64,000 nt of DNA, taken from positions 186,001 through 250,000 of the forward strand of contig NZ_AQUK01000001.1 in NCBI RefSeq assembly GCF_000371805.1, written 5' to 3'. This stretch comes from Methanocaldococcus villosus KIN24-T80. GTDB lineage: Archaea; AGJL01; Methanococci; Methanococcales; Methanocaldococcaceae. The translations under genes were made by a program, and so were the position numbers. Each line of letters begins with the position of its first letter. Within the stretch, counting starts at the first letter, position 1. The notes beneath the pieces were generated by a model. That model saw only the letters and a list, made by a program, of their open reading frames with translations, was not told the origin of the DNA and ran no database searches. Positions 8,024-44,265 of the stretch are shown piece after piece.

Positions 8024-9193
8024 ATGAAAGCTGTCTTAGCATACAGTGGAGGTTTAGACACAAGTTGCTGTTTAAAATTATTAGAAGATATGGGTTATGA
8101 AGTAATATCTGTCTGTGTGGATGTAGGTTTGCCTTATGAGGAGCTAAAAGAAGTTGAAGAAAAAGCTAAAAGTTTAGGAGTTTTAAAACATTACACTGTA
8201 GATGCAAAAGAGGAGTTTGTAAAAGATTACATCTTTAGAGCAATAAAGGCTAATGCTATGTATGAAGGTTATCCTCTATCAACAGCACTAGCAAGGCCAT
8301 TAATTGCCAAAAAAGTAGTTGAAATTGCTAAAAAAGAAGGTGCTGAAGCTATAGCCCATGGTTGCACAGGAAAGGGTAATGATCAATTTAGATTTGAAAC
8401 TACAATAAGAATATTAGCTCCAGAAATCAAAATAATTGCTCCAATAAGAGATTTAAATTTAACAAGAGAAGAAGAAATAGAATATGCTAAGAAAAAGAAT
8501 ATCCCTATACCTAAGGAAAGTAAAAAATATAGTATAGATGAGAATCTTTGGGGTAGGAGTATAGAAGGAAGTGATTTAGAAGATCCTAAAAATTTCCCTA
8601 GTGAAGAAGTTTATGCCTGGACAAAAAATCCTGTTGAAGATAAAGAAGAAGAGGTTGTAGAAATAGAATTTAAAGAAGGTGTGCCAATAGCTATAAATGG
8701 AGAAAAGCTAAATCCTGTGGAGTTGATAAGAAAGGCTAATGAAATTGCAGGAAAACATGGAGTAGGTAGGATAGATATAATAGAGGATAGAATTATAGGG
8801 TTAAAGTCAAGAGAGGTTTATGAATGCCCAGGAGCTATAATGTTATTAACAGCACATAAAGCTTTAGAACAATTAGTATTAACCAGAGAAGAGATAAAAT
8901 TCAAAGAAATTGTTGATAATTTGTATTCTGAGCTAATTTATAAAGGACTGTGGTTTGATCCTCTAAAAGAAGATTTAGATGCATTTATAGATAAAACCCA
9001 GGAAAGAGTTGAAGGAAAAGTTTGGTTAAAATTATTTGGAGGTTCAGTAAGAGTAGTGGGTAGAGAGAGTAGATATTCATTATACAGCAAAGAATTAGTG
9101 TCTTTTGATGAGAAAACTGATCAGAAGGAAGTAGCAGGTATGGTTAAATATCATGGAATACAGGCAGTGCTTTATAGAAAAGTTACAAAATAA
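8024..9193 (+). CDS. argG: argininosuccinate synthase
   Basis: A 389-residue enzyme joining citrulline and aspartate with ATP in the arginine pathway. The N-terminal PP-loop [16 protein letters not shown] binds ATP. Other hallmarks are [34 protein letters not shown], and the C-terminal [17 protein letters not shown] choose ATG 8024, which gives [10 protein letters not shown] and leaves the GGTGAT site (8014-8019) correctly spaced. The upstream in-frame TTG/GTG/ATG are inside or before that site. It is monocistronic: divergent from gatA and convergent with the ribosomal protein group, with only 2 nt between the two stop codons. Confidence 0.97.
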
Positions 9194-9195
9194 AT

Positions 9196-9399
9196 TTATT
9201 CCTTAGCTTTTAACTCTTTTTTCATATCTTGATAAATTTTTGTCCATTTTAACTTTCTTGGATTTCTACCCATCATATAACTTTTTTCACACTTTGATGA
9301 ACAGAAGTAAAGAACTGTTCCATCTTTCTCTACAACCATTTTTCCAGTACCTGGTTCTATCTCATGGCCACAGAAAGAGCATCTTCTCCACTCAGGCAT
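9196..9399 (-). CDS. rpl24e: ribosomal protein L24e
   Basis: A 67-residue zinc-ribbon protein of the large ribosomal subunit. The four-cysteine site is [13 protein letters not shown] followed by [10 protein letters not shown], and the tail [13 protein letters not shown] is typical. It closes the L7Ae-S28e-L24e group; archaeal genomes often carry ndk or infB next, but here the group ends against convergent argG. The start has the context AGGTGAAAACATG. Confidence 0.95.
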
Positions 9400-9415
9400 G
9401 TTTTCACCTTTAAAT

Positions 9416-9646
9416 TTATCTTCTTTTATCTAATGGTCTAGCCTCTCTTTCGGTCTCTCTTAGCATGATTATATCTCCTACCTTTACAGGTCCTTTAACA
9501 TTTCTAATTAAAACTCTACCAGCATCTTTCCCTCCTAAGATCTTACATCTAACTTGTATAACTTCCCCATAAACCCCTGTTCTTCCAATAACTTCTATAA
9601 CTTCAGCAGCCACTGCCTCTTTATATACAAACTCATCTTCCACCAT
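9416..9646 (-). CDS. rps28e: ribosomal protein S28e
   Basis: A 76-residue OB-fold protein of the small subunit. The core [23 protein letters not shown] and [17 protein letters not shown], ending in [15 protein letters not shown], is diagnostic. The C-terminal REAR...RR tail contacts rRNA near the E site in the archaeal/eukaryotic ribosome. The start at 9646 follows GGTGATAAA; the longer frame from 9661 would put the ribosome-binding site inside the coding region. It is co-directional with L7Ae (about 54 nt upstream gap) and L24e. Confidence 0.95.
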
Positions 9647-9700
9647 TTTATCACCAAACAAAAGAATAAGAAAAAATTATTTAGAATAATTAAAAAATTT

Positions 9701-10054
9701 TTACTGTTTCAATGCATTTATTTTTTCAATTAAAGCTTTTAATTCATCTGGATTGTCTTCTTCAATTATTGCCACTGATGAAGCAGCTACTTCTATTCCT
9801 GCAGCTTTCCCAAGATCTTGTTTTGAAGCTACATATGCATAAGGAATGTTTTTCTCTTCACATAAGTATGGTAGGTGAGCAACAACCTCCTCTGGTTTAA
9901 CATCTTCAGCTATTATAACTAGTTTAGCAATTCCTCTCTCAACAGCCTTTGTTACTTCATTAGCTCCTTTTTTTATTTTTTTAGCCTTAGCTATTGCTTC
10001 TAATATCTCTTTTTGGATTTCCTCTGGAACTTTAAACTTTACATATATTGCCAT
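9701..10054 (-). CDS. rpl7ae: ribosomal protein L7Ae
   Basis: A 117-residue K-turn-binding protein. The conserved [50 protein letters not shown] segment contains the RNA-contact residues. In archaea it is a ribosomal protein and also the core protein of box C/D and H/ACA RNPs and of RNase P. The start at 10054 ([10 protein letters not shown]) is set by GGAGGAGATAAA; the extension to 10087 reads through leader sequence. The leader holds a perfect hairpin at 10084-10101 whose loop is complementary to the GGAG core, so autoregulation is plausible. Confidence 0.95.
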
Positions 10055-10083
10055 TTTATCTCCTCCTTCATTTTTATAAATAT

Positions 10084-10101
10084 GCAATCCGGAGGGATTG
10101 C
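10084..10101 (-). promoter_or_regulatory. hairpin at the 5' end of the L7Ae leader
   Basis: Perfect 7-bp inverted repeat GCAATCC / GGATTGC with a 4-nt loop (CTCC on the mRNA strand). On the minus strand a TATA box (TTTATATA, 10126-10133) predicts a transcript start near 10100-10103, so the hairpin would begin at about the first transcribed base. Its loop CTCC could pair with the GGAG of the L7Ae ribosome-binding site, GGAGGAG (about 10060-10066). The hairpin is seen; the control role is inferred. Confidence 0.5.
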
Positions 10102-10162
10102 TTCTATAAATAAAATTGTAAATAATATATAAAACTTATGCTAATCTTTATAATGTGATAGA

Positions 10163-35107: not shown

Positions 35108-35152
35108 AAAAATTTAATAATATCTGTTGTAATAATACTATTTGGTGAAATA

Positions 35153-35887
35153 ATGATTCTAGGTATAGATGTTGGCTCAACAACAACAAAAATGGTTCTA
35201 ATGGATAATAAAAAAATAGTTGATTATAAAATAGAAAATATAGGAGTTGTTGTTGAGGAGGAGGATATTTTAAAGATGGTTAATGAGTTTGAGAAAGAAT
35301 ATAATATCAATAAAGTAGTTGCTACTGGTTATGGAAGACACAAAATAACTTTTGCAGACAAAATTGTTCCAGAAGTTATTGCATTAGGAAGAGGAGCAAA
35401 TTATTTTTTCAGGGAAGCTGATGGAGTTGTTGATATTGGTGGGCAAGATAGCAAGGTTATAAAGATAGATAAAAATGGAAATGTTGTAGATTTTATCCTA
35501 TCTGATAAATGTGCAGCAGGAACTGGGAAGTTTTTGGAGAAATGTATAGAGATTTTGAAGATTGAGGATGACATAAATAAATATAGATCAAATAATGTTG
35601 CTAAAATCTCATCCATGTGTGCTGTCTTTGCAGAGAGTGAAATTATCTCCTTATTAGCTAAAAAAACACCAAAAGAAGATATTTTAATGGGGGTTTATGA
35701 GAGCATATGCAATAGAATTGTCCCAATGGTAAATAAATTAGGGATAAGTAATATTGTTTTCAGTGGAGGAGTTGCAAAGAATAGGGTTTTAGCAGAAATT
35801 TTAAAGAAAAAGTTAAATAAAAGTATCTTAATTCCAAAAGAACCGCAAATTGTTTGCTGTGTTGGTGCTATATTGAAGGGCTTTTAA
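35153..35887 (+). CDS. ATP-dependent activator of a double-cubane/2-hydroxyacyl-CoA dehydratase-type reductase
   Basis: A 244-residue ASKHA-fold ATPase of the HgdC/BadF/YjiL family. ATP-binding motifs: GIDVGSTTTKMVLMD, VVDIGGQDSK, and IVFSGGVAKNRVL. Two cysteines, Cys120 (DKCAAGTGKF) and Cys156 (SSMCAVFAESE), would bind one [4Fe-4S] at the dimer interface. In the family, ATP hydrolysis drives one electron at very low potential into the partner protein, here the reductase at 36573. The start follows TGGTGAAATA. I recall the MJ0004/MJ0007 pair of M. jannaschii flanking the same fdhBA genes. Confidence 0.88.
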   Translation: MILGIDVGSTTTKMVLMDNKKIVDYKIENIGVVVEEEDILKMVNEFEKEYNINKVVATGYGRHKITFADKIVPEVIALGRGANYFFREADGVVDIGGQDSKVIKIDKNGNVVDFILSDKCAAGTGKFLEKCIEILKIEDDINKYRSNNVAKISSMCAVFAESEIISLLAKKTPKEDILMGVYESICNRIVPMVNKLGISNIVFSGGVAKNRVLAEILKKKLNKSILIPKEPQIVCCVGAILKGF

Positions 35888-35919
35888 AATCTTTAATCTT
35901 TTAGAATCTTGGTGGGAAG

Positions 35920-36417
35920 ATGAAAGGAAAGAAAATTGCAATTGTAGCTCACTGCATATTAAATCAAAATAGTGTTGTTAACGGCTTAGAGAGGGCAGAA
36001 GGGGCGTTTAATGATGTTGTTGAATTGCTTTTAAAGAAAAATTATGCTATAATTCAACTCCCATGCCCAGAAATGCTATATTTGGGGATAGATAGGGTAG
36101 GAAAAACAAAGGAGGAATATGATACTGAGGAATATAGGGAGCTTTGTAGGGAAATTTTAAAATCAACAATCAAATATTTGAGAGAATATAGTAAAGAAGG
36201 ATTTAAATTTATTTTAATTGGAATAGAAGGGTCTCCGACATGTGGGATTTTTAAAACTGTAACAAAAGAAGGATTAATAGATGGAAGAGGTATTTTAATG
36301 GAGGAATTTTTAAAAATGTTAGAGAATGAGCATATAGATTTGAAGAAAATTGATTTTCCAGTAAATATGAATGAATACAACAAATTTTTAAAAGAATTAG
36401 AAAGATTGTTGATGTAG
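35920..36417 (+). CDS. DUF523/TudS-like putative desulfidase
   Basis: A 165-residue protein similar to DUF523/TudS enzymes, which carry a [4Fe-4S] cluster held by three cysteines and remove sulfur from thio-compounds. Cysteines are Cys12 (AHCILNQN), Cys49 (QLPCPEMLYLG), Cys76 and Cys108 (GSPTCGIF). The first, second and last fit the three cluster ligands. Its place between activator and reductase genes argues for handling a sulfur or selenium substrate, which is inference. The start follows TGGTGGGAAG. The gene begins 32 nt after the activator stop. Confidence 0.8.
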   Translation: MKGKKIAIVAHCILNQNSVVNGLERAEGAFNDVVELLLKKNYAIIQLPCPEMLYLGIDRVGKTKEEYDTEEYRELCREILKSTIKYLREYSKEGFKFILIGIEGSPTCGIFKTVTKEGLIDGRGILMEEFLKMLENEHIDLKKIDFPVNMNEYNKFLKELERLLM

Positions 36418-36440
36418 AATTTTCTTTTTTGTATTCGATA

Positions 36441-36459
36441 CTATTAAAAACTCTAATCA
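36441..36459. promoter_or_regulatory. inverted-repeat box copy (after the TudS-like gene)
   Basis: CTATTAAAAACTCTAATCA matches 16 of 19 positions of the perfect palindromic copy at 37868 (CTATTA-N7-TAATAG). It lies 24 nt after the TudS-like stop and about 114 nt before the reductase start, upstream of the TATA-like GTTTTTATAC at 36491-36500. It could be a second operator half of the reductase promoter. Confidence 0.45.
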
Positions 36460-36540
36460 CCTAATTATTATTAAAATTTTAAATAAAAATGTTTTTATAC
36501 ACTTACATTTTAAAGAAATTTGATGATTTTTGAAGATATG

Positions 36541-36559
36541 TTATTAAAAAATCTAATAA
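36541..36559. promoter_or_regulatory. inverted-repeat operator candidate before the reductase gene
   Basis: TTATTA-AAAAATC-TAATAA is a perfect 6+6 inverted repeat with a 7-nt spacer. It sits between the TATA-like element (36493-36500) and the GGTGAT site (36564-36569). The same layout and the same core recur at 37868-37886. Arms ATTA...TAAT fit a T-N11-A type binding site, but no regulator is encoded nearby. Confidence 0.55.
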
Positions 36560-36572
36560 CTAAGGTGATATG

Positions 36573-37691
36573 ATGGAGCTAAATGCAATAAAAAAACTCA
36601 TGGAAAAATTTGCAAATAGGAAAGAACAACTCTACAAACAAAAAGAAGAAGGAAAGAAAGTGTTTGGTATGTTCTGTGCATTTGTTCCAATTGAATTAAT
36701 ATTGGCAGCTGATGCTATTCCAGTTGGCTTGTGTGGAGGTAAAAATGACACAGTTCCAATTGCAGAGGAGGATTTACCAAGAAATCTCTGTCCATTGATA
36801 AAATCATCTTATGGATTTAAAAAGGCAAAATCATGCCCATACTTTGAGGCAGCAGATGTGATTATTGGGGAAACAACATGCGACGGTAAGAAAAAGATGT
36901 TTGAGTTATTGGAAAGAATGGTTAAAATGCATGTTATGCTCCTTCCATACATGAAAACAGAAAAAGCAAAGGAATTATGGGTTGAAGAGGTTAAAAAATT
37001 AAAAGAGTTAGTTGAAAAGGAAACAGGTAATAAAATTGATGAAGAAAAATTAAAAGAGAGTGTTGAAAAAGTAAACAAAATGAGAAAACTTTTCTACAAA
37101 TTATATGAGTTAAGAGCAAACAAACCAACACCAATAAAAGGTCTTGATGCTTTAAAATTGTTCCAATTTGCTTATTTGTTGGATATTGATGATACAATAG
37201 AAATTTTGGAGGAGTTAGTTAAAGAGTTAGAAGAGAGAGTCAAAAAAGGAGAAGGTTATGAAGGTAAAAGGATATTAATAAGTGGTTGCCCAATGGTTGC
37301 TGGAAACACAAAAATTGTTGAGTTAATTGAGGAAGTTGGTGGGGTTGTTGTTGGTGAGGAAAGTTGTACTGGAACAAGATTCTTTGAGAATTTAGTTGAA
37401 GAACCAACTATTGAGGGTATAGCAGAGAGATACTTAAAAATCCCATGCGCATGCATGTTCCACAACGATGAGAGGATAGAGAACATCAAAAGATTGGTTA
37501 AAGAGTTGAATGCTGACGGGGTTGTTTACTACACATTGCAGTATTGCCACACTTTCAATGTAGAGGGGACAAGAGTTGAGGAAGAACTTAAAAAAGAAGG
37601 CATTCCAGTTATTAGGATTGAGACAGATTACTCTGAAAGTGATAAAGAGCAATTAAAAACAAGATTAGAGGCATTTATTGAAATGATTTAA
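36573..37691 (+). CDS. double-cubane-cluster reductase (HgdB/YjiM-like)
   Basis: A 372-residue protein of the 2-hydroxyglutaryl-CoA dehydratase D-component family, in the single-subunit branch with double-cubane [8Fe-9S] clusters. Cysteines at 35, 54, 73, 88, 103, 239, 265, 292, 294 and 325 include the pairs in [34 protein letters not shown] and [10 protein letters not shown] expected of that branch. With its ATPase activator it would carry out ATP-driven reduction of a small molecule; the natural substrate of this branch is unknown. No alpha subunit is present, which argues against a true hydroxyacyl-CoA dehydratase. Start 36573 (second ATG) is better spaced from GGTGAT. T-rich sequence follows the stop. 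Confidence 0.85.
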
Positions 37692-37700
37692 ATTTTTAGG

Positions 37701-37720
37701 TTTTTTTCTTTTTTCTTTTT
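37701..37720 (+). terminator. T-rich terminator after the reductase gene
   Basis: Two or three runs of 5-7 T separated by single C (37701-37720), with more T-runs up to 37760, follow the stop codon at 37691. Archaeal RNA polymerase terminates at such U-tracts. The rest of the 205-nt gap to the next gene holds a TATA-like ACTATATATA (37816-37825) and the operator box at 37868. Confidence 0.55.
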
Positions 37721-37867
37721 GTTATGTTATTATTTGTTTTTATTTTTCTTTTTTAATTTTCTAATTGTTATTAATTTTTTTAATAACTTTATATTGATTA
37801 AACTTCTTAAACAACAAACTATATATATCATTTTTTGAAGAAAAATAAAATGATTTAGACAAAAATG

Positions 37868-37886
37868 CTATTAAAAATTCTAATAG
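37868..37886. promoter_or_regulatory. perfect inverted-repeat operator candidate before the YedE half-genes
   Basis: CTATTA-AAAATTC-TAATAG is a perfect 6+6 inverted repeat with a 7-nt spacer, the best copy of the box. It touches the GGTGAGGG ribosome-binding site of the first YedE half-gene and lies about 45 nt after the TATA-like element, so a bound protein would block initiation or early elongation. Confidence 0.6.
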
Positions 37887-37896
37887 GTGAGGGCGT

Positions 37897-38355
37897 ATGA
37901 GAATTTCTCCATTAGTTGCTGGTCTTATAGGAGGTTTCTCCGCTGCGCTGTTGCAGGCGTTTTTTAAGGTATCTCCACCACCAGCGTATGGGATTTGTAT
38001 CGCCTGCCACACAAGAGATTTGGTCAATTGGATTGTAAATGCAATTTTTGGTACAACTTTACCAATGGCTCCAGTTTCAAAGGTTTTTCCAGTTTTAACT
38101 GTTGTTGGTATTTTTATTGGAGCATTTATCGCAGCTAATGTTCATAAGGAGTTTAAGATAAAACAAACACACAATCCAATAGTTGGTTTTGTTTTGGGAG
38201 TTTTGGTTGTGATATTTGCGTTGTTGATGGGTGGATGTCCATTGAGGGAAACAATAAGAACAGCCTATGGAGATGTTATTGCATTGATAAGTTTAATAGC
38301 AATGTTTACTGGTGTAATTGTGGCAAGTGAAGTCTATTTAAAAAGAAATGTTTAA
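37897..38355 (+). CDS. YeeE/YedE family transporter, half-protein 1
   Basis: A 152-residue membrane protein with about four hydrophobic segments. The conserved cysteine motifs are GICIACHTRDLVNWI and MGGCPLRETIRTAYGD; in YeeE-type thiosulfate channels such cysteines pass sulfur species through the membrane. In bacteria the family is usually one chain of about 330-400 residues. Here it is split, and the second half is encoded 11 nt downstream. Members of the YedE branch accompany selenium use. Ala-GCG and Leu-CTG/TTG codons near the start are unlike neighbouring genes, hinting at a different history. Confidence 0.85.
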   Translation: MRISPLVAGLIGGFSAALLQAFFKVSPPPAYGICIACHTRDLVNWIVNAIFGTTLPMAPVSKVFPVLTVVGIFIGAFIAANVHKEFKIKQTHNPIVGFVLGVLVVIFALLMGGCPLRETIRTAYGDVIALISLIAMFTGVIVASEVYLKRNV

Positions 38356-38366
38356 GGTGGTGATAG

Positions 38367-38840
38367 ATGGAATACTTGCATGCAATTGGAACATTCATAT
38401 TTGGAATCCTTTTAGGTTATTTATTTCAAAGAGCAAGAATGTGTTTTATTGGAGGGATGAGAGACTTTTATTTAATAAGAGATACATGGTTAATTAAAGG
38501 TCTCTTTGGGTTTTTTGGTGGAGCATTATTAGGTTATATAATATTTAGTGCTATGAGTAAAATTCCATTCTTCCCATGGATTGCTGTAAAAGGCTTTACC
38601 CCAATCCCAGGAGACCCATTAGGTAAAGCAGGAAGTTTAGTTGGACATTTAATAGTTGCTATTATTGGTGGATTTGGAGTTGGATTTTTCTCAGTTATCC
38701 AAGGGGGTTGTCCATTGAGAAACTATGTTATGGCAGCAGAGGGGAATAAGACGGCGATTGCATACATATTAGGACTTGCTGTTGGAGCAGTATTGTTCCA
38801 CACCGTTGTAGTTCCTATCGTTAAGGCAATACTGTTATAA
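38367..38840 (+). CDS. YeeE/YedE family transporter, half-protein 2
   Basis: A 157-residue membrane protein, the partner of the previous gene. The motifs FQRARMCFIGGMRDFYLIRDTWLIKG and IQGGCPLRNYVMAAEGN match the second repeat of YeeE/YedE transporters. Four or five hydrophobic segments are visible. It follows the first half after 11 nt behind GGTGGTGATAG, so equimolar production is likely. The cargo is expected to be a reduced sulfur or selenium species, by family association only. Confidence 0.85.
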   Translation: MEYLHAIGTFIFGILLGYLFQRARMCFIGGMRDFYLIRDTWLIKGLFGFFGGALLGYIIFSAMSKIPFFPWIAVKGFTPIPGDPLGKAGSLVGHLIVAIIGGFGVGFFSVIQGGCPLRNYVMAAEGNKTAIAYILGLAVGAVLFHTVVVPIVKAILL

Positions 38841-38856
38841 TCTTTTGGGGAAATTT

Positions 38857-39423
38857 ATGATCTTAAAGAAAATAAAAAAATTACTTAGAAAGAAAGGTAA
38901 TGAAGAAAAAGAATTTGAAGGTAGGGGATTGATAATTTTTAAAAGTGTTAAAGATGCAATGAAAGCAGAAAGTATTTTAAAGAATTATAATGTTAGAGTG
39001 GTGGCTCCTCCTTATGAGATAAGAGAAGGTTGTGATTTAGCATTAGAGTATGATTTGGTAGATGAATTGGGAATTAAGAGAGAATTAGAAAAAAATAATA
39101 TTAATCCATTAAAATTCATCCCTTTAAATGATTATTCCTTAAAACCTCTTGAATTAATAAAAATTAAAGAAATTGATGGATTTATTATGGTAAGATGTGG
39201 AAATATGAAGATAACAATTGATAAAGAAGGGAATATTGTAAATATCTCTGGCGGCGGATGTCCAGATGTGCCATATTTGGCATTAAAATTAAAGGGAAAA
39301 AATATTAAGGATATTAAAGAGGATGAGACTCCAAAAAGTTTGGGGTATACATTATGTGCCTATACTTTAAATAAGGCATTTGAAAAGGCAAAAGAATTGA
39401 TAAATTTAAAAAATAAATTTTGA
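38857..39423 (+). CDS. DUF3343 (putative Se/S carrier) protein with extra C-terminal domain
   Basis: A 188-residue protein. Residues 22-90 form a DUF3343-like domain: GRGLIIFKSVKDAMKAESILKNYNVRVVAPPYEIREGCDLALEY, with Cys59 in the conserved position. Residues 95-185 form a second domain with Cys114, Cys135 (ISGGGCPDVPYLALKLKG) and Cys167 (SLGYTLCAYTLNKAF), which I do not recognise. DUF3343 often stands beside YedE/YedF in selenium-using genomes. I use ATG 38857 behind GGGGAAATTT; the TTG at 38845 is an alternative. Co-transcribed with the YedE halves (16-nt gap). Confidence 0.75.
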   Translation: MILKKIKKLLRKKGNEEKEFEGRGLIIFKSVKDAMKAESILKNYNVRVVAPPYEIREGCDLALEYDLVDELGIKRELEKNNINPLKFIPLNDYSLKPLELIKIKEIDGFIMVRCGNMKITIDKEGNIVNISGGGCPDVPYLALKLKGKNIKDIKEDETPKSLGYTLCAYTLNKAFEKAKELINLKNKF

Positions 39424-39460: not shown

Positions 39461-40213
39461 TTAAATTTTATATCCTTCAACAAGAAAATATGATTTATTT
39501 TTCCAAGCTATTCTATATAGAAGAGGGACATTTTTATTTAGCTTCTCTCTAATCCATTTAAGATCTCTTACAGAGATATTTGACAAATTTGCTCTTTTAA
39601 ATAGGTTTATAACATCTTCTGGGTTTGAACCTCCATAAAATGGGAGTTTTTTATTGATTCCTTTCTTTTCATAAATATCCATATTTTTCCAAGGATTTCT
39701 TCTCTCATATATTATTATTGCTACCTGCCCAATAGCTTTTCTAATCTTTTCCTCAAGAGTTTCCTCTTTCCATCTACCATCAATAACAACAACTTTTCCT
39801 CCTTTTCTTACAACCCTACTCCATTCATTTATTGCTCTATGTGGATTTGGCAGTGTCCATAATAAATGCCTATTAATTACTGCATCAAACTCTTCATCAT
39901 TAAAAGGTAAATTTTCAGCATCAGCAATCATAAATTCAATATCTAAACCTTTCTTATTAGCTTTGTTTTTTGCTTTCTCCAACATTCTCTCCGATAAATC
40001 AATGCCAACAACCTCATATCCTAACTCAGCTAACAGAATAGCTAAAAATCCAGTTCCAGTTCCTACATCCAAGATTCTTAGCTTTTTATCTCCAAATATA
40101 TCATATAAAACACTTCTCCAAACCTCAGGCAAACCGGAATGTCCTGGTGAATTGTCATAGCTTTCACTTCGTATATCCCAATATTTTTTAATACATTCTT
40201 TTACATCTTCCAT
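39461..40213 (-). CDS. class I SAM-dependent methyltransferase
   Basis: A 250-residue Rossmann methyltransferase of the UbiE/arsM-like superfamily. The SAM motif is LRILDVGTGTGFLAILLAELGYEVVGIDLSERML, then IEFMIADAENLPFNDEEFDAVINRHLLWTLPNP and WSRVVRKGGKVVVIDGRW. The N-terminus (IKKYWDIRSESYDNSPGHSG) is typical of small-molecule methyltransferases. The C-terminal 70 residues are divergent. The substrate is unknown; lying between the DUF3343 gene and the kinase-like gene, thiol or selenol methylation is a possibility only. Convergent to the DUF3343 gene with a 37-nt gap. Confidence 0.85.
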   Translation of the reverse strand: MEDVKECIKKYWDIRSESYDNSPGHSGLPEVWRSVLYDIFGDKKLRILDVGTGTGFLAILLAELGYEVVGIDLSERMLEKAKNKANKKGLDIEFMIADAENLPFNDEEFDAVINRHLLWTLPNPHRAINEWSRVVRKGGKVVVIDGRWKEETLEEKIRKAIGQVAIIIYERRNPWKNMDIYEKKGINKKLPFYGGSNPEDVINLFKRANLSNISVRDLKWIREKLNKNVPLLYRIAWKNKSYFLVEGYKI

Positions 40214-40328: not shown

Positions 40329-41162
40329 ATGATTATAGCAGGGACTATTCCAATAGAAGGACTAGAGTTAATAAAAGGGAAGCCAATACTAAAAGGAAAT
40401 AAAATAATTATAAATAACAAAGAATTTCCAATATCTATGGGAACTTGTGCATTGATAGGAGCAGTTTTAAAAACATTAGAATATTTTGATGAGAATAATA
40501 TTCATGTTATAACTGCTGGAGATATTGGAAAAGGGGATGGGAGTTTAAAGATTTATGATGCATTGAAAGAAGTTGATGATGATTTACTTATAATACATTA
40601 CATAAAACCAAAAATATCTTATATAAAAGAAATTGATTTTTCTCCAAAGATTATTGCTGATGCTGGAGGAATGTATGCAGCAAAAGCAGCAAACATAGGG
40701 GATAAATTTCATTTATTTTTACCTGATGTTGGTGAGTTAGCATTTTTAGCAGATGAAAAGGCATCCCATCCTGCCTATGTGAGAGGTTTTATATCTGAAG
40801 TAGATAATAAAGAAGTACCTGAACTAATCAGAAGAGCTTATGGAAAATCAAAAATGCCAAAATATATGGTTGTTAAGGGAGAAAAAGATTATATAGTTGA
40901 GGATGGAAATATTGCTGAAATAATAGATTCTCCAAAAATAGAGGCAATGGAATGCATTGGAGGTACAGGAGATACTCTAACAGGAATTATTTCCTCTTTA
41001 ATAAATTGTGGATACAAAACAAAAGACGCCTGTGTTTTGGGATGTAAAATAAATAGAATATTGGGGGAAATTTCTAATGTAAAACCAAATACACAAATTA
41101 ATGAATTAATCTATAATATACCAAAAGTTCTAAAATTTATCCTAAATAAAGAGCTTTTTTAA
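40329..41162 (+). CDS. NAD(P)HX dehydratase/ribokinase-like protein
   Basis: A 277-residue protein of the ribokinase-like superfamily. The C-terminal anion-hole and catalytic motif IEAMECIGGTGDTLTGIISSLINCGY matches the GTGD segment of NAD(P)H-hydrate dehydratases and small-molecule kinases. KIIADAGGMYAAKAANIG and FLPDVGELAFLADEKASHPAYV fit the same fold. It lacks the epimerase domain found in the usual archaeal Nnr fusion, so it may have another substrate. It lies between the sulfur/selenium genes and fdhBA, overlapping the fdhB tail by 26 nt. The start follows GGTTGATAGT. Confidence 0.65.
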   Translation: MIIAGTIPIEGLELIKGKPILKGNKIIINNKEFPISMGTCALIGAVLKTLEYFDENNIHVITAGDIGKGDGSLKIYDALKEVDDDLLIIHYIKPKISYIKEIDFSPKIIADAGGMYAAKAANIGDKFHLFLPDVGELAFLADEKASHPAYVRGFISEVDNKEVPELIRRAYGKSKMPKYMVVKGEKDYIVEDGNIAEIIDSPKIEAMECIGGTGDTLTGIISSLINCGYKTKDACVLGCKINRILGEISNVKPNTQINELIYNIPKVLKFILNKELF

Positions 41163-42243: not shown

Positions 42244-44265
42244 TCATAATATTTTTTCAACTCTAACAGCACATAACTTAAGTTCAGGAATCTTACTTTT
42301 TAGATCTAAGATATTGTTTGTCAATATATTAGCTTTAGTTTCTGCAAAGTGAAATGGCATAAATAAAACCCCTTCTTTAATATCCTTAGAAATCCTCACT
42401 TTTACAATAACTTCCCCTCTTCTTGATGATACCTTTACTAACTCATTGTTTTTAATTCCCAATCTTTTAGCATCTTCTAAATTCATCTCTATATATCCTT
42501 CATTAATTTCTCTTATTATATGCTCACTCCTTCTTGTCATTGTTCCTGTGTGATAATGAAATATTATCCTTCCAGTTGTTAAAATAAATGGATATTCTCT
42601 ATCTGGTAACTCCATTGGGTCTTTATATTCTACTGGATGTATCACTCCTAAACCATCTGAAGTTAAAAATTTATCAGTATATAAAATTGGAGTTCCTGGG
42701 TCTTTTTCATCTTTGCATGGCCACTGTATTCCATCAATTCCTAGTCTGTCATATGTTATCCCTGCATATTGGGGAGTTACTTTCCTAATCTCTTCAAATA
42801 TTTCCCTTGGAGAGTTATAATTAAATTTATATCCCATCTTCTCTGCAAGTTTTTTTATTATTCTCCAATCTTCCATTGCCTCTCCTGGTGGATTTACTGC
42901 CTTTCTTATTCTTTGCACTCTCCTTTCAGTGTTTGTAAATGTTCCGTCTTTCTCTGCCCAACATGCTGCTGGAAGAACCACATCAGCAAGTTCTGCAGTT
43001 TCAGTTAAAAATATGTCTTGAACTATTAAGAAATCTAATGATTTCAAAGCATGTTCAACATGTTTGACATTTGGATCTGATACCATAGGATTTTCTCCCA
43101 TTATGTAAAGACATTTTATCTCTTTTCCTGATTTTTCAATCATTTCAGGAATTGTTAGCCCAATTTCATTATTTAATTCAACACCCCAAAATTCTTCAAA
43201 TTTTTTGTAAGCAAGATTTATTTTTTGATAACCAGGAAATACATCAGGTAAAGCACCCATATCACAGGCTCCTTGAACATTATTCTGCCCTCTAAGGGGA
43301 TTAACTCCAGTTCCTCTTTTCCCTACATTTCCAGTTATCATTGCTAAATTACATAATGCCTTTACTCCATCTACACCTGATGTAAATTGGGTAACCCCCA
43401 TACAGTAAATTATTGATGCCCTATCAGCACTTCCATACATTTTTGCTGCCTCTATGATCAACTCAGGAGGAACTCCACAGATTTTTGAAACATATTCAGG
43501 AGGGTATTTTTCCACAACTTTTTTTAACCCTTCAAATCCTTTTGTTCTATTTTTTATAAATTCCTCATCAATTAACCCCTCTTTTATAATCACATGCATC
43601 ATTGCATTTATTAAGGCTACATTAGTTCCAGGATTTATTTGTAAAAACAAATCAGCATTTTTAGCAGTTATTGTTTTTCTTGGATCAACTACAATTATTT
43701 TAGCACCTTTTTCTTTTGCCTTAACTATTCTTCTTGCTATTAAAGGATGTTGTTCAAAAGTGTTAGAGCCAATTATAAATATACAGTTAGCATCTTCAAT
43801 ATCTTCAATTGAGTTTGTCATAGCACCAGACCCAAAGGCCTCCCTTAAAGCCAAAACAGTTGGTGAATGTCAAAGTCTTGCACAGTGGTCTATATTATTA
43901 GTTTTTACAACTACTCTTGCAAATTTTTGAAAAATATAATTATCTTCATTGGTACATCTTGCAGATGAAAAAAACCCTACCTCTTCTGAAGAATACTCCA
44001 TTAGTCTATTTGCAATCAAATTCAATACTTCTTTCCATGAGGCTTCAACAAACTCTCCACTCTTATTAATTAGTGGCTTTTTTAATCTGTCTTTACTATG
44101 GATAAATTCATAACAATAGCTTCCCTTAATACAAGTTTTTCCCTCATTTATTGGATGTCTTTTGAATGGGTAAGTTCCAACAACTTTCCCATCCTTTACA
44201 ATCAAATCTATCCCACAACCCACCCCACAGTATGGACAAATTGTATGAACAAATTTTAATTCCAT
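42244..44265 (-). CDS. fdhA: formate dehydrogenase alpha subunit, selenoprotein (Sec132 at in-frame TGA)
   Basis: A molybdopterin/tungstopterin oxidoreductase of 673 residues, read through a TGA at 43870-43872. The residues around it, DHCARL[23 protein letters not shown], match the formate dehydrogenase active site. The [4Fe-4S] site is CPYCGVGCG (Cys10, 13, 17) plus Cys45. The later domains [34 protein letters not shown] and the C-terminal [20 protein letters not shown], followed by [10 protein letters not shown], continue in the same frame, so this is not a pseudogene. ATG 44265 follows GGTGATATTA. A SECIS hairpin lies in the leader at 44312-44343. Confidence 0.96.

Follow-up and report, generated by a model that had tools for sequence, protein, structure and literature searches.

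What does a double-cubane reductase reduce in the living cell, and what does its gene have to do with genes linked to selenium? The question is raised by a cluster of six genes in the heat-loving methanogen Methanocaldococcus villosus KIN24-T80, lying at 35153-39423 of the 64,000-nt stretch analysed here (the window, to which all coordinates refer). The cluster encodes DCCP, a single-chain double-cubane reductase, together with ACT (its putative activator), a TudS-related protein, two halves of a YedE/YeeE-type transporter and a DUF3343 protein. Using a computational analysis of families, genome comparison, sequence motifs and structure models, we propose that this block is a selenium-supply module in which DCCP would reduce selenium species to selenide for SelD, a reading to which we assign a probability of about 0.55. 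The natural role of DCCP and the transport of selenium in prokaryotes are thereby brought together. It is unclear whether the reactions known for double-cubane reductases matter physiologically (PMC11971306), and prokaryotes have no established dedicated transporter for selenium (PMC13188914, PMC11097638).

A first-pass annotation, made from the letters of this DNA alone, had listed six same-strand genes with named families. All six open reading frames, their coordinates and their family calls were confirmed, TudS as TudS-related; a conserved seventh member, CARBK, had been missed. The features are as follows.

35153-35887, + strand: ACT, HgdC-type ATPase, putative electron activator of the double-cubane reductase (TIGR00241; PDB 4eht, 7yyl_E)
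35920-36417, + strand: TudS-related protein (CD3072 family), putative desulfidase (NF045597, invariant residues)
36542-36558, + strand: palindrome TATTAAAAAATCTAATA, putative operator before DCCP (matrix scan)
36570-37691, + strand: DCCP, single-chain double-cubane [8Fe-9S] reductase (NF040772, 6eno, eight invariant cysteines)
37869-37885, + strand: palindrome TATTAAAAATTCTAATA, putative operator before YedE1 (matrix scan)
37897-38355, + strand: YedE1, N-terminal half of the YedE/YeeE-type transporter, GGCP motif (TIGR04112 positions 3-131; PF04143)
38367-38840, + strand: YedE2, C-terminal half of the transporter, GGCP motif (TIGR04112 positions 188-308; PF04143)
38845-39423, + strand: DUF3343/Se_S_carrier protein, long form, with a conserved C-terminal domain (SGGGCPDVPYL, LCAY) (PF11823, alignment A2)
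40329-41162, + strand: CARBK, ribokinase-fold protein, partner of YedE and DUF3343 (genome neighbourhoods, structure model)

Co-occurrence with selD, the check that the first-pass annotation had proposed, was strongly positive for the reductase. In 399 genomes drawn evenly from the Peptoclostridium phylum (Clostridia-type bacteria; a completeness of 90 was requested), DCCP was found in 117 and selD in 260. selD was present in 115/117 genomes with DCCP compared with 145/282 without it (odds 54, p = 1e-23, kinship among genomes being ignored). DCCP is thus nearly restricted to selD-bearing genomes in these bacteria. The control gene nifH showed no association in the same genomes (68/94, p = 0.11), and among the nifH-bearing genomes selD was found in 49/49 with DCCP and in 19/45 without it. 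selD was also present in 49 of 50 genomes taken from the loci most similar to the window DCCP, for which 38.3% of bacteria serves as the comparison figure (PMC5322559). In 14 control genomes, DCCP and an above-cut-off selD occurred in the same two, Escherichia coli and M. jannaschii. The first-pass annotation had left the substrate as a sulfur or selenium compound; selenium has far stronger support than sulfur. The only two DCCP-bearing genomes of the phylum sample without selD (G250 and G452) could be incomplete assemblies or true exceptions.

Within the order Methanococcales, a selD match was found in 36/36 genomes, and selD is therefore uninformative as a discriminator there. The selD of M. 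villosus itself lies far from the block (C1:886004-886828) and contains an in-frame TGA. Across the order, the genes fall into two sets, YedE-DUF3343-CARBK and ACT-(TudS)-DCCP, which lie together in several genomes of the Methanocaldococcus type, as well as in G034 and G035. G035 belongs to another family; nevertheless, window positions 35144-38840, spanning ACT, TudS, DCCP, YedE1 and YedE2 plus the spacers, align to it as a single 3710-bp match with 94% DNA identity, against a background of 73-74% for nearby ribosomal genes. The DCCP tree also groups the window with G035 with high support. The block thus appears to have moved jointly between families.

A 17-bp palindrome, TATTA-N7-TAATA, lies directly upstream of both DCCP and YedE1. 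We trained a matrix only on DCCP sites of other genomes and scanned 800 kb of the M. villosus genome (65% of the main contig), a stretch with 839 genes. The window DCCP ranked first (score 23.4) and YedE1 second (17.9), while the third hit (15.7) was far from its start codon. YedE1 upstream regions from 16 loci outscored those of 695 other genes (p = 2e-11). In four genomes where DCCP and YedE1 are unlinked (G002, G016, G019 and G022), the YedE1 site was still good (17.5-21.2); as for DCCP, the sites of G002 and G022 scored high, one G016 copy was moderate (13.3) and the G019 copy scanned did not score well. These data suggest a putative operator common to DCCP and YedE, for whose regulator HrsM is the first candidate. 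The matrix scan gave no consistent match upstream of ACT, TudS, DUF3343 or CARBK, and ACT and TudS may therefore be controlled otherwise. Intergenic gaps of 152 bp and 205 bp, together with the palindromes before the second and third blocks, suggest that the genes are transcribed in three blocks: ACT-TudS, DCCP and YedE1-YedE2-DUF3343. A third near-copy of the palindrome, TATTAAAAACTCTAATC, is located at 36442-36458, just 3' of the TudS gene and about 110 bp before DCCP.

The same families are clustered with SelD in bacteria. Loci L291, L295 and L301 share the order SelD-DCCP-ACT-YedE-TusA-DUF3343-CARBK, several such loci of Desulfobacterota being on one strand, and L286 contains SelB in addition to this set. 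Locus L197 has the order YedE-TusA-DUF3343-CARBK-DCCP-FmdE-like-DCCP-ACT-SelB-SelD. SelD and DCCP are accompanied by ACT, YedE or CARBK in nine loci (L197, L203, L222, L250, L286, L291, L295, L301 and L308). Mapped on the DCCP tree, linkage to SelD, SelB, YedE or CARBK switches state 11 times; therefore, it does not reflect one inherited arrangement. Joint transfer, the common putative operator and these SelD clusters support the view that the genes act as one unit. In five loci of Clostridia (L184, L194, L212, L219 and L225), a compact DCCP-DUF3343-ACT triple was observed with neither YedE nor SelD close by.

CARBK, of 277 residues, is a common neighbour of YedE1-YedE2-DUF3343 in Methanococcales. 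Of the 23 YedE-bearing genomes, 22 contain it; among the 13 that lack YedE, it occurs only as a fragment, in G026. The structure model (predicted local distance difference test score, pLDDT, 90.6) has a ribokinase fold. Against TIGR00196 (NAD(P)H-hydrate dehydratase), the closest family with a name, CARBK scored 37.2 bits, below the cut-off of 129.85, and the two have only the fold and a GGTGD motif in common. A CARBK profile matched 100 of 394 genomes of Desulfobacterota, the phylum of G080. Within 5 kb of CARBK in 40 loci of this phylum, YedE occurred 39 times, a TusA-like gene 33 times, long DUF3343 31 times and SelD 12 times; SelD was present in 16 loci when the whole retrieved stretch was counted. 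In L197 (8486-9601), the bacterial CARBK chain continues at its C terminus into about 80 further residues, which contain a cysteine motif and by eye resemble DUF1858.

ACT scored 317 bits against TIGR00241 (cut-off 125) and has the cluster cysteines and ATP motifs of that family. It matched PDB entries 4eht (1.6e-48), to which its stretches SDKCAAGTG, SSMCAVFAESE and DIGGQDSK align, and 7yyl_E (4.3e-44), the activase chain of an entry that also holds DCCP. DCCP matched NF040772 with 501 bits (cut-off 350) over profile positions 6-372 of 372, that is, over its whole length. Its best PDB match was 6eno (1.6e-107), and C36, C55, C74, C89, C104, C266, C293 and C326 are conserved without exception in 6eno and in nine archaeal homologues. 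The system thus resembles the DCCP and activator of Carboxydothermus (6eno, 7yyl) in its full-length homology, eight invariant cysteines, single chain and nearby activator gene. However, the window DCCP belongs to a separate archaeal clade, lacks about 40 residues of the N-terminal extension of 6eno, and is tied by neighbourhood, putative operator and apparent transfer to YedE, DUF3343 and TudS.

For both YedE halves the best NCBIfam family was TIGR04112, at 73.2 and 69.0 bits; neither reached the whole-protein cut-off of 200 of this model, which assumes one chain, and both passed the threshold of PF04143. The DUF3343 protein scored 60.1 bits against PF11823 (now 'Se_S_carrier'; cut-off 25), and one cysteine of its domain (C58 in alignment A2) is invariant in 19 rows. 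The structure model of the long form has a pLDDT of 85.7, and a PDB fold search with it returned no match at E<=0.001. The TudS-like protein reached 178.7 bits against NF045597 (TudS-related CD3072; cut-off 130) but missed the gathering score of PF04463 (2-thiouracil desulfurase; 27.8 bits compared with 34.7), and is therefore TudS-related rather than TudS proper. A PDB search with it found no relative. Its C12, C49, E51, S105 and C108 are invariant in 11 homologues, with a spacing that matches the cluster cysteines and the catalytic Glu and Ser of TudS (PMC10611767). Broken TudS genes were observed in G002 (L048/L052) and G016 (L049-L053) and a degraded YedE in G004 (L099), so that parts of the module decay in these genomes while DCCP remains intact.

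From the families and catalytic residues, the putative operator, the apparent joint transfer, the clustering with SelD and the near-restriction of DCCP to selD genomes, all read from sequence, we infer a direction of transport, a substrate and an order of steps, along with roles for DCCP, the TudS-like protein and CARBK and the identity of a regulator. YedE1 and YedE2 would form a YeeE-type membrane channel importing a selenium compound or a mixed sulfur/selenium one, and DUF3343 would hold the chalcogen on its conserved cysteine. The TudS-like [4Fe-4S] protein may remove sulfur or selenium from a carrier molecule such as a modified uridine. ACT would hydrolyse ATP and drive electrons of very low potential into the double-cubane cluster of DCCP, which would reduce a selenium species to selenide for SelD. 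DCCP and YedE would be switched jointly through the common palindromic operator, probably at selenium shortage. The reduction of elemental selenium to selenide takes place near -0.7 V, below ferredoxin, and an ATP-driven reductase of the DCCP type would therefore be called for. In the related BzdNO, which has double-cubane and [4Fe-4S] clusters, the second and third electrons need a potential below -0.6 V (PMC11971306). It is possible, if doubtful, that double-cubane reductases as a family are ATP-driven selenium mobilisers, which together with their activator convert elemental, polyselenide or sulfur-bound selenium to selenide, at very low potential, as their natural role, with CARBK as an extra, undescribed enzyme of the same pathway.

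Several observations weigh against the selenium-supply reading. Deletion of yedE in M. maripaludis caused no clear defect with ten selenium species and a mild one with selenocystine only (PMC11097638). No DCCP is known to act on selenium, the known in vitro substrates being acetylene, hydrazine and azide (PMC11971306). In 80 bacterial DCCP loci, most had no SelD or YedE within 10 kb, and the genome counts given above are uncorrected for phylogeny. In Methanococcales, DCCP is absent from nine and YedE from 13 of the 36 genomes; six have DCCP without YedE and two YedE without DCCP. Since all of them have a selD match, selenium use does not require the module. The yedE transcript of M. maripaludis nevertheless increased by 5.28 log2 on selenium depletion (PMC11097638). 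Overall, the selenium link is strong, while the claim of a plain YedE importer is not borne out by the deletion. The uptake-plus-reduction reading of the first-pass annotation is thus partly supported: that the genes form a unit is upheld by the transfer, the putative operator and the bacterial SelD clusters.

The block could instead consist of two neighbouring but separate modules, one serving selenium (YedE-DUF3343-CARBK) and the other a low-potential reduction that has nothing to do with it (ACT-TudS-DCCP). The fixed order-wide arrangement of YedE1-YedE2-DUF3343-CARBK, the location of ACT-DCCP elsewhere in most genomes outside Methanocaldococcus and the different presence patterns of the two sets fit this idea. 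However, it leaves aside the palindrome that precedes DCCP and YedE1 even in some genomes where they are unlinked, the 94% match to G035, the independent bacterial clusters that hold both sets and the fact that, in the phylum sampled, DCCP hardly occurs outside genomes with selD, and we consider it rather unlikely. It is also unlikely that DCCP uses or depends on selenium without supplying it, for instance in the demethylation or repair of methyl-selenium compounds or simply beside a selenoprotein. This would suit the majority of DCCP loci, which are distant from SelD, and the type 1 mlp clusters with DCCP, proposed for methyl-selenide metabolism (PMC10418091). DCCP, however, accompanies transporter and carrier genes in the window, L291, L295, L301 and L308, and the UbiE-like methyltransferase gene of the window (39461-40213) is on the other strand.

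An entirely sulfur-based pathway, in which thiosulfate or a thio-compound enters via YedE and sulfide is freed by TudS and DCCP, the association with selenium being secondary, is quite improbable. The substrates of TudS are thiolated uracils (PMC10611767), and DUF3343 also occurs in selD-free genomes (PMC5322559). YeeE/TsuA, the better-known relative of YedE, transports thiosulfate (PMC11073785). The comparison with the YeeE/TsuA-YeeD system of thiosulfate uptake shows a common PF04143 superfamily and a TusA-like gene beside YedE in the bacterial clusters; the archaeal YedE differs in fitting the selenium YedE model best, in being a two-gene transporter and in having no adjacent TusA-like gene. 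The halves fit that model better than TsuA, and the bacterial clusters with SelD and SelB, the counts of DCCP and selD and the induction of yedE by selenium depletion (PMC11097638) likewise speak for selenium.

Several parts of the proposed selenium-supply module were already known. Lin et al. (2015) proposed YedE and DUF3343 for selenium and noted the split archaeal YedE (PMC5322559). Their YedE/YedF and DUF3343 work covers the same families, and among the STRING partners in Slackia it lists an activase together with an HgdB-like protein. It leaves this link undiscussed, however, and contains no description of CARBK, TudS, the putative operator or joint transfer. DCCP has been linked provisionally to selenium in a preprint, where DCCP and its activator are listed as putative selenium genes of type 1 mlp clusters (PMC10418091); unlike these clusters, the window block shows no corrinoid methyltransferases. 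The earlier statement that the pathway had not been described as a unit is therefore only partly correct. In a literature search that was not exhaustive, we found no description of CARBK, the common operator, joint transfer or the near-confinement of DCCP to selD genomes. What emerges is a cluster of selenium genes that in its archaeal version takes in an orphan reductase, with a concrete, testable role for DCCP and a kinase-like gene added to the selenium parts list.

The first-pass annotation had also taken a formate dehydrogenase with selenocysteine (Sec), encoded by fdhBA 3 kb away on the opposite strand, as a clue to the substrate. The genes are indeed on the minus strand, and fdhA is of the Sec type, with an in-frame UGA at 43870-43872; the start of fdhB is 1.7 kb and that of fdhA 2.8 kb from the end of the cluster. 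As a clue this linkage is weak, and we set it aside because it varies between relatives and often involves a short FdhA-like paralogue. The Rfam family SECIS_3 over the fdhA UGA (43817-43875, minus strand) was sub-threshold (25.4 bits compared with a gathering score of 63) and was not used. In L111, the genes for a short FdhA-like protein (9006-10133; 375 amino acids, no Sec site seen) and for FdhB separate ACT from DCCP and run on the opposite strand. A similar arrangement is found in L107, L110 and L144, all of them from Methanocaldococcus-type genomes, with the short protein in place of the full Sec-FdhA. The UbiE-like methyltransferase gene of the window lies between DUF3343 and CARBK, and a homologue (82%) is found close to DUF3343 in G001 (L107).

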